Virus record (IMG/VR): IMGVR_UViG_3300035670_001203
Span: 1-24,425 of that record
DNA length: 24,425 nt
Reading direction: 5' to 3' (one strand)
DNA from: a virus
The notes under the pieces were generated by a model, which was not told the origin of the DNA, did not search any database, and saw only the letters and a list, made by a program, of their open reading frames with translations. The translations under genes and the position numbers were made by a program. Positions 5,955 through 6,584 of the stretch are shown here, in pieces; within the stretch, counting starts at the first letter, position 1; each line of letters opens with the position of its first letter.

Positions 5955-6314
5955 ACGCTCTCCTTTTTTGAGAACTGTAAACCTGTTTTTGTGTCTTGTG
6001 TTGTGATTTATTTCTATCGGAATTCACTCACCTATAGTCTCTGATCTCTTGAGACATAACTTCCCCAGGGTGGAGCCGAGTACTTTTGCGAAGCACTGGG
6101 ATTTCCACCTCTCCCGCCTGTGTCATCCTGTGACAGGGCCAGAGTACCCGGAGGCTGCGATTGTTTCGATGTTGGAGTGGTCTTCCACCGCTGGCTCCAA
6201 CGTCTACACCAGTCCCTCGCAGACAGGCTGGTCGGCTCGCAATCAGGGTGAGGATTGGCCGGTGTTTTCTCCCTCGCAGCCCATGCAGGCTCTTGCTATC
6301 GTGAGGGGAACGGC
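5955..6314. other. 360-base gene-poor region rich in inverted repeats; possible promoter/origin
   Basis: No gene is convincing on either strand. Visible structure: GTTGGA (6173-6178)/TCCAAC (6195-6200) enclosing GTGG/CCAC; a TGTCA/TGACA hairpin near 6121-6135; GTCTC/GAGAC with a nested TCTC-TT-GAGA near 6037-6055; a repeated TCCCTCGCAG (6213-6222, 6270-6279). The last 70 bases before the replication gene are AT-rich with no strong promoter match. Position ahead of the replication genes makes an origin or leader RNA plausible, but this is inference. Confidence 0.35.
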
Positions 6315-6327
6315 TGGCGTAGAAATG

Positions 6328-6421
6328 AAAAAAGCCACTATCTGCTGCCCCCCGGTAGGAACCCACCTTAGTGGGCGAGGAGCATGAGATAGTGGCCTTA
6401 CTCTTGTCGGTTCCTACGCCA
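6328..6421 (-). ncRNA. Structured RNA with interleaved stems (pseudoknot) ending in a U-run
   Basis: Read on the minus strand: A' GTAGGAACC (6417-6409), B GCCACTATCT (6396-6387), small hairpin CCCAC/GTGGG (6375-6362), A GGTTCCTAC (6363-6355), B' AGATAGTGGC (6343-6334), then six Ts (6333-6328). Stems of 9 and 10 perfect pairs cross, so they form a pseudoknot or alternative folds. A further 8-bp outer repeat TGGCGTAG (6421-6414)/CTACGCCA (6322-6315) competes with A'. The B stem plus U6 would work as an intrinsic terminator for the ThyX operon. The order of strands is also that of HDV-like ribozymes, though no P4 hairpin is evident. Confidence 0.7.
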
Positions 6422-6437
6422 ACAAGGATAGTTTACA

Positions 6438-6584
6438 TCAGAAGCAAGTAGTCGTGCAATTGGTTCCATAACAACACGTTGTACAAACCACCATTCTCCC
6501 GTTGTAAAAGTACGTACTGGTTACACAGTTGGCAACAGCAGCACTGGATAGCAACATTCCGACAACAAAGATGAATTTACGCAT
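6438..6584 (-). CDS. Secreted Cys-rich small phage protein (48 aa)
   Basis: MRKFIFVVGMLLSSAAVA is a signal peptide with a likely signal-peptidase I site after AVA (A18); the residue before C20 does not fit a lipobox. The mature 30 residues hold seven cysteines (NC, CTTCCYGTNC, TCF), suggesting disulfides in the periplasm. The start at 6584 has GGAG 6 bases upstream and overlaps the ThyX stop by 8 bases. Similar tiny secreted Cys-rich proteins recur in Proteobacteria phages, function unknown. It is the last gene before the structured terminator. Confidence 0.7.
   Translation of the reverse strand: MRKFIFVVGMLLSSAAVANCVTSTYFYNGRMVVCTTCCYGTNCTTTCF

Follow-up and report, generated by a model that had tools for sequence, protein, structure and literature searches.

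A conserved kissing-loop leader with a putative terminator precedes diverse structured noncoding RNAs in phages

The DNA analysed here, hereafter referred to as the window, is a stretch of 24,425 nucleotides (positions 1 to 24,425 of virus record IMGVR_UViG_3300035670_001203) whose genes are those of a tailed phage, with endolysin, holin and virion proteins among the products. Downstream of thyX and a 47-aa frame, and upstream of an O-like replication initiation protein and a P-like helicase loader, there is a minus-strand element whose parts run from 6426 to 6328 in the order H1 hairpin, linker, B, C, apical hairpin, A, C', B' and U6. The features of this locus, along with the basis on which each was assigned, are as follows.

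6430..6459, minus: promoter-like site, -35 TTGCAC (6459-6454), 18 bp, -10 TAAACT (6435-6430); weak, 7/12
6426-6419 / 6410-6403, minus: H1 hairpin, 8-bp stem CUUGUUGG/CCGACAAG; sequence; predicted RNA 5' end
6418-6411, minus: 8-nt loop of H1, CGUAGGAA, containing A'; sequence
6417-6409, minus: A', GTAGGAACC; coordinates match the sequence
6411..6417, minus: 5' strand of the kissing helix, in A' (GUAGGAA); pairing with A in relatives
6334..6396, minus: rod, made up of the B stem, inner C stem and apical hairpin; sequence and folding
6396-6387, minus: B, GCCACTATCT; sequence
6384-6376 / 6354-6346, minus: inner C stem, 9 bp, continuing B inward; sequence
6375-6362, minus: apical hairpin of the rod; sequence and folding
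6363-6355, minus: A, GGTTCCTAC; sequence
6355..6361, minus: 3' strand of the kissing helix, in A (UUCCUAC); sequence and pairing in relatives
6343-6334, minus: B', AGATAGTGGC; sequence
6328..6333, minus: U6 (T-run), putative intrinsic-terminator tail; sequence
6315..6322, minus: A2, outer repeat CUACGCCA (partner 6421-6414); alternative partner of H1 strand plus A'
6036..6324, minus: conserved structured noncoding RNA of ~290 nt, the cargo; 31-sequence alignment and profile search

The minus-strand RNA is predicted to fold with an energy of -62.4 kcal/mol (z = -7.7), a stability that none of 200 dinucleotide shuffles equalled; the plus strand folds too (z = -3.5), without a U-run. The rod has an energy of about -42 kcal/mol and U6 follows it directly, an arrangement of stable GC-rich stem and immediate U-run that is predicted to act as an intrinsic (Rho-independent) terminator, and all aligned relatives have 4-9 U exactly after the GC-rich stem. 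Strand A (6361-6355) lies between the apical hairpin and C' and abuts both with no unpaired spacer. Since A' forms the loop of H1, the stem that crosses B is a "kissing" interaction of 7 bp between a hairpin loop and an internal strand. An earlier note on this DNA had located A', B, A, B', the T-run and the outer 8-mer, all of them correctly, and had described a crossing stem of 9 bp; the crossing is real, but the helix is 7 bp long in the family because the final two C of A' pair inside the H1 stem. The same note missed the H1 hairpin, the inner C stem with its apical hairpin, the upstream promoter-like site and the downstream conserved structured RNA.

Conservation of this leader was examined by pattern searching, which returned 76 stretches for the first pattern, some of them visibly chance matches, and 102 stretches for a second-subtype pattern (CCAGCGGGG is one of the variants that were met). 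These searches divide the leader into two subtypes: type I, to which the window belongs, has one apical hairpin, and type II has two hairpins. The closest ThyX relative, L001, has the same layout written in other letters, with A'/A reading GUGGAAG/CUUCCAC. In the type I alignment of 18 sequences 97.6% of cells are paired and 18 pairs are changed on both sides, with a covariation of 0.432 against 0.167 in shuffles that ignore relatedness (0/500), a signal that is lost when the partners are slid. The kissing helix itself is paired in 18/18 type I sequences (100%) with compensatory changes in 4 columns, and its 18 double-changed cells compare with 3.8 in shuffled alignments, again ignoring relatedness (0/500). 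Compensatory changes also occur at 11/19 pairs of B and C in type I, and H1 is kept in aligned relatives with the core GUUGG/CCGAC. The type II alignment of 11 sequences is 99.3% paired with 15 pairs double-changed, and here too the kissing helix is paired throughout (11/11) with compensatory changes in 4 columns. In a wider set of 70 distinct type II modules, 68 have an upstream segment to which A is perfectly complementary over 7 bp, as compared to a mean of 12.7/70 and a maximum of 24 over 500 shufflings of A among loci. As relatedness was left in, none of these shuffle figures should be read as a probability. The comparisons support the pseudoknot as a genuine RNA structure, given that every aligned relative pairs the crossing helix with compensatory changes, and the covariation in homologues that the earlier note had called for is present in both subtypes. 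That note had also held that homologues retaining just the B stem and U-run would indicate a plain terminator; the outcome favours the pseudoknot, with A'/A paired in 29/29 aligned relatives.

Helices that cross in the order P1-P2-hairpin-P1'-P2' recall the HDV-like ribozymes, and the earlier note had listed a small-ribozyme-like fold among its options. Such an assignment, or one to another small ribozyme with self-cleaving activity, is extremely improbable, as the strand that would have to serve as P1 is the loop of the conserved H1 hairpin rather than a single-stranded 5' strand, the helices and U-run account for the conserved bases, and the Rfam ribozyme and HDV-like covariance models returned no match at E up to 10.

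The location of the leader within its transcription unit is indicated by what lies just upstream of H1. Among distinct homologue upstream regions, 42/78 contain a sigma-70-like promoter that reaches at least 9/12 consensus positions just before H1, where about 1 would be expected from control positions. The -10 element mostly ends 12-18 nt ahead of the H1 loop, which predicts that transcription begins approximately with the first bases of H1. By comparison, the five positions tested after the U-run yielded 0/90 loci at 9/12 as opposed to 41/90 upstream, and the median distance from the U-run to the first downstream gene that has a ribosome site is 340 nt (90 loci). The leader therefore sits between a promoter and a region that has no promoter of its own, an assignment that is based on consensus matches and in which the promoter of the window is weak; a generic scan of the window at 9/12 reported no promoter, and a generic scan for terminators reported none in the window, the apical part of the rod being beyond the loop limit of that scan. 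Two side observations concern the same region. The 47-aa frame (6438-6581, minus) would encode a small, Cys-rich, secreted-peptide-like product; it overlaps the promoter-like site at its 3' end, and an ending similar to that of this frame precedes the leader in several relatives. Additionally, divergent leaders in L125, L203 and the L177/L175 group have A'/A matches of 9-14 bp that overlap promoter-like hexamers, for example TTGTCA-17-GACAAT in L125.

Because a strong sigma-70-like promoter immediately precedes H1 in homologues, we regard the element as opening a transcription unit of its own, and the earlier placement at the end of the ThyX operon is not supported. It is very unlikely that we are dealing with an ordinary intrinsic terminator of that operon: the element does follow thyX and the 47-aa frame and does end in U6, but such a terminator does not explain the conserved kissing helix, the promoter or the cargo, H1 and A are kept in most homologues, and the module occurs in contigs that were found independently of thyX (in L326, for instance, it is preceded by a primase gene and small frames). 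The earlier argument that an ordinary terminator would not need a crossing stem is supported.

The vicinity of a promoter raises an alternative in which A' and A are inverted protein-binding sites in the DNA, with the RNA pairing a by-product. The kissing helix is free of G-U pairs in both alignments while H1, B and C have them, and this absence appears unusual for a constraint that acts purely at the RNA level; moreover, the longer pairing in L125, L203 and L177 overlaps promoter-like hexamers. Nevertheless, A' is located in a hairpin loop and A lies between two stems without spacers, and the B, C and H1 stems vary through G-U pairs as RNA does, so that binding sites in DNA are an improbable explanation. 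A double constraint on A', which would have to match both A and A2, could be the cause of the missing G-U pairs.

What follows the leader in the window is a conserved structured RNA. In L001, DNA past the U-run is 84% identical to window positions 6337-6040 and noncoding in appearance, and an 18-base pattern taken from this L001 region retrieved 54 viral contigs, all of them containing the region and mostly with a U-run just before it. A sequence profile, as opposed to a covariance model, located about 90 loci of the family (91 counted), such as L001:3792-4080. An alignment of 31 diverse sequences has 37 predicted pairs, 30 of which show compensatory changes. Conserved stretches in this family are CCUGCAUGGG, AAACACCGGC, CCUGUCUGCGAGGGAC, AAUCGCAGC and CACCCUNGGGG. 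A coding function for 6315-6040 was considered and rejected, as no frame is shared with the 84%-identical L001 region on either strand and the helices covary. Neither the leader nor the window cargo matched any Rfam family at the gathering score.

The same leader is shared by at least 10 other cargo clusters (11 at the threshold used). The second largest cargo family (GGGGGCAGUUCCCGAA..AAUCCGUG) folds as well, with 13/35 pairs compensated; its members are found at L251, L259, L265, L288, L297, L304, L311 and other loci, and it has a 5' subdomain in common with the window family. On one phage contig the RNA directly behind the leader (L266:488-604, minus) is the Rfam motif Betaproteobacteria-1 (RF02932; 86.3 bits, E 1.6e-14); the match spans the L266 cargo alone, with the window cargo constituting a separate, unlisted family. 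At L251, L265, L266, L289 and L311 there is a recurrent TGTTAGACT behind the cargo and just before the next gene; its resemblance to an extended -10 promoter indicates that cargo and next gene seem to be separate units.

Leader and cargo adjoin in most loci, which is compatible with a reading in which the leader is the 5' domain of a single ncRNA of ~400 nt, with A'/A2 closing this first domain and the U-run serving as a structural linker and not as a terminator. However, the run of 4-9 U is positioned exactly after the GC-rich stem in all aligned relatives, the leader stays constant while the cargo families vary, and the two can be separated by genes or a tRNA, making a single long RNA unlikely. 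For example, a conserved ~90-aa gene lies between leader and window-type cargo at L083, L084, L096, L111, L153 and L155, and a tRNA gene does so at L085:5790-5855; such insertions indicate that the leader is part of a longer unit. The inserted ~90-aa gene comes right after the leader U-run and contains DFTYYAVEIKHRVGIERGKPVD.

The outer repeat A2 is present solely in RNA that extends past the U-run, and its pairing is compatible with the B stem. As a fixed stem the outer repeat was rejected, since its pairing was no better than shuffled on the 18-sequence alignment and borderline over 30 distinct combinations (27/2000). In the wider set of 70 loci, complementarity was 6.35 for loci with their own partner against 5.86 when shuffled, a value that 0/500 shuffles reached, and runs of at least 7 occur in 26/70 loci. 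Long examples are found at L278, L314, L273 and L154, and additional compensated cases at L083 (GCAUAG/CUAUGC) and L084 (GGUGUAG/CUACACC). A2 is weak or absent in many loci, among them those with the post-U start CGCCCGTACTCC, which have no long match. On the basis of the 70-locus test A2 is accepted as another partner for A', confined to a subset of loci, a role that these comparisons establish in part, and the competition for A' that the earlier note had attributed to the outer repeat is borne out to that extent.

From the hairpins, kissing helix, U-run, promoter position and cargo, and from the absence of any consensus promoter downstream of the U-run, all as read from sequence comparison, we consider it somewhat probable that a phage noncoding-RNA transcription unit begins here with a promoter-proximal terminator leader, in which the kissing helix and A2 influence the choice between stop and readthrough. 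Transcription would start at H1, and the H1 loop (A') would kiss strand A within the long rod, the base of which precedes U6. Polymerase would then either stop at U6, releasing a compact RNA of ~100 nt, or read on into the structured cargo RNA. In the readthrough RNA, A2 could replace A as the partner of A', unfolding H1 and fastening the RNA 5' end to the bases immediately ahead of the cargo. We infer that termination at the U-run is regulated with some readthrough, that it is tuned by the kissing helix and that A2 acts as a switch. Energies calculated for the full-length segment were -52.6 kcal/mol with H1 kept and -62.4 kcal/mol with A'/A2 formed, and the kissing duplex contributes about -8.0 kcal/mol; thus, when the kissing duplex is added to the H1 form, the two folds are roughly balanced. 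A terminator/antiterminator switch had been among the options of the earlier note, and a switch between termination and readthrough is indeed the best fit, but the antiterminator part did not stand: no classical antiterminator hairpin that excludes B was found, and A'/A and A'/A2 both leave the B stem intact. As no mutually exclusive terminator and antiterminator stems were found, the leader is classed as conditional-terminator-like rather than as a classical attenuator. A nuclease-resistant 3' end, also suggested earlier, is conceivable but leaves the promoter, the outer partner and the downstream RNA unexplained.

The leader could instead be a complete small-RNA gene that acts in trans, with the cargo expressed from another promoter or by leaky readthrough and A2 perhaps a trans target of the H1 loop. 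All parts of such a gene are present, namely a promoter, a predicted kissing-loop RNA of ~100 nt and a terminator, and there is a precedent in IsrK of Gifsy-1, whose short and readthrough isoforms are known to interact in trans (PMC4825925). Nonetheless the leader is near-constantly and tightly linked to noncoding cargo, the cargo has no consensus promoter, and A2 lies solely in the readthrough RNA, so that we view a separate small-RNA gene as possible but doubtful in comparison with a terminator leader.

Several phage systems share individual aspects of this arrangement. The pR'-6S RNA-tR' region of lambda is a Q-dependent promoter-terminator leader of the phage late operon. The present locus likewise consists of a promoter, a short leader RNA, an intrinsic terminator (here a predicted one) and then a regulated region; it differs in having noncoding cargo and a covarying kissing loop with a second partner, and no Q-type factor has been identified. 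The C4 antisense RNAs of P1/P7 and the CI antisense RNA of P4 have a short leader segment that is complementary to two sites of the same transcript. Two partners in one transcript are also found here, located inside the terminator and just after it, and the leader matched no Rfam family. The put element of HK022 is a nascent RNA of ~70 nt whose two stem-loops follow closely on a phage promoter; it acts on termination by suppressing later terminators, and an RNA triplex as well as binding to the zinc-binding domain of beta' have been described for it (PMC9378689). Our leader likewise has two stem-loops immediately after a promoter, but the second of these is itself terminator-like. In IsrK, a single promoter gives rise to two RNAs, one short and terminated and the other produced by readthrough, the latter being an mRNA; the abstract mentions neither a kissing loop nor a large ncRNA cargo, both of which are present here (PMC4825925). 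By analogy, the leader would appear to work most like a lambda-late-type promoter-terminator leader or IsrK, with a put-like placement. A search of the literature, mostly of freely readable papers, found no description of such a leader.

Leader-bearing phages are of freshwater type. Besides viral contigs, the search of known phages and plasmids yielded a single carrier, MW202545 of the annotated phage collection, an uncultured phage from Manatee Spring. In seven virus records that were checked, the leader is present once per record and on the correct strand. Matches in genome contigs are mostly chance in appearance, with L203, from a Burkholderiales bin, carrying the cargo family. No leader was found by pattern in 399 genomes of the order of L203; a model match of 31 bits in these genomes is weak and was taken as chance, and weak matches to DNA of a Listeria phage and a Methanosphaera plasmid were set aside. 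The resemblance of the window thyX to thyX of Acidovorax phages, the Betaproteobacteria-1 cargo and the presence of L203 in a Burkholderiales bin are hints of a host among the Betaproteobacteria.

Large phage noncoding RNAs are mostly orphans, and a conserved, testable leader now marks their beginning. It ties together many cargo families that are otherwise unrelated and connects phages with the orphan motif Betaproteobacteria-1, and the leader models R1 and R2 provide a search handle for more such RNAs. That at least 10 different uncharacterised RNAs are preceded by the same leader suggests that phages turn on RNAs by a mechanism not described so far. Were readthrough under the control of the kissing loop, noncoding RNA would be regulated by termination, which specialists would find unexpected. 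We tentatively extend this to a common start cassette, consisting of promoter, kissing-loop leader, terminator and anti-loop A2, that in many phages may control at least 10 unrelated large structured ncRNAs, with termination or maturation governed by a three-strand RNA switch (A', A and A2). Should this prove true, the cassette would represent a general and previously undescribed platform for RNA expression in phages.
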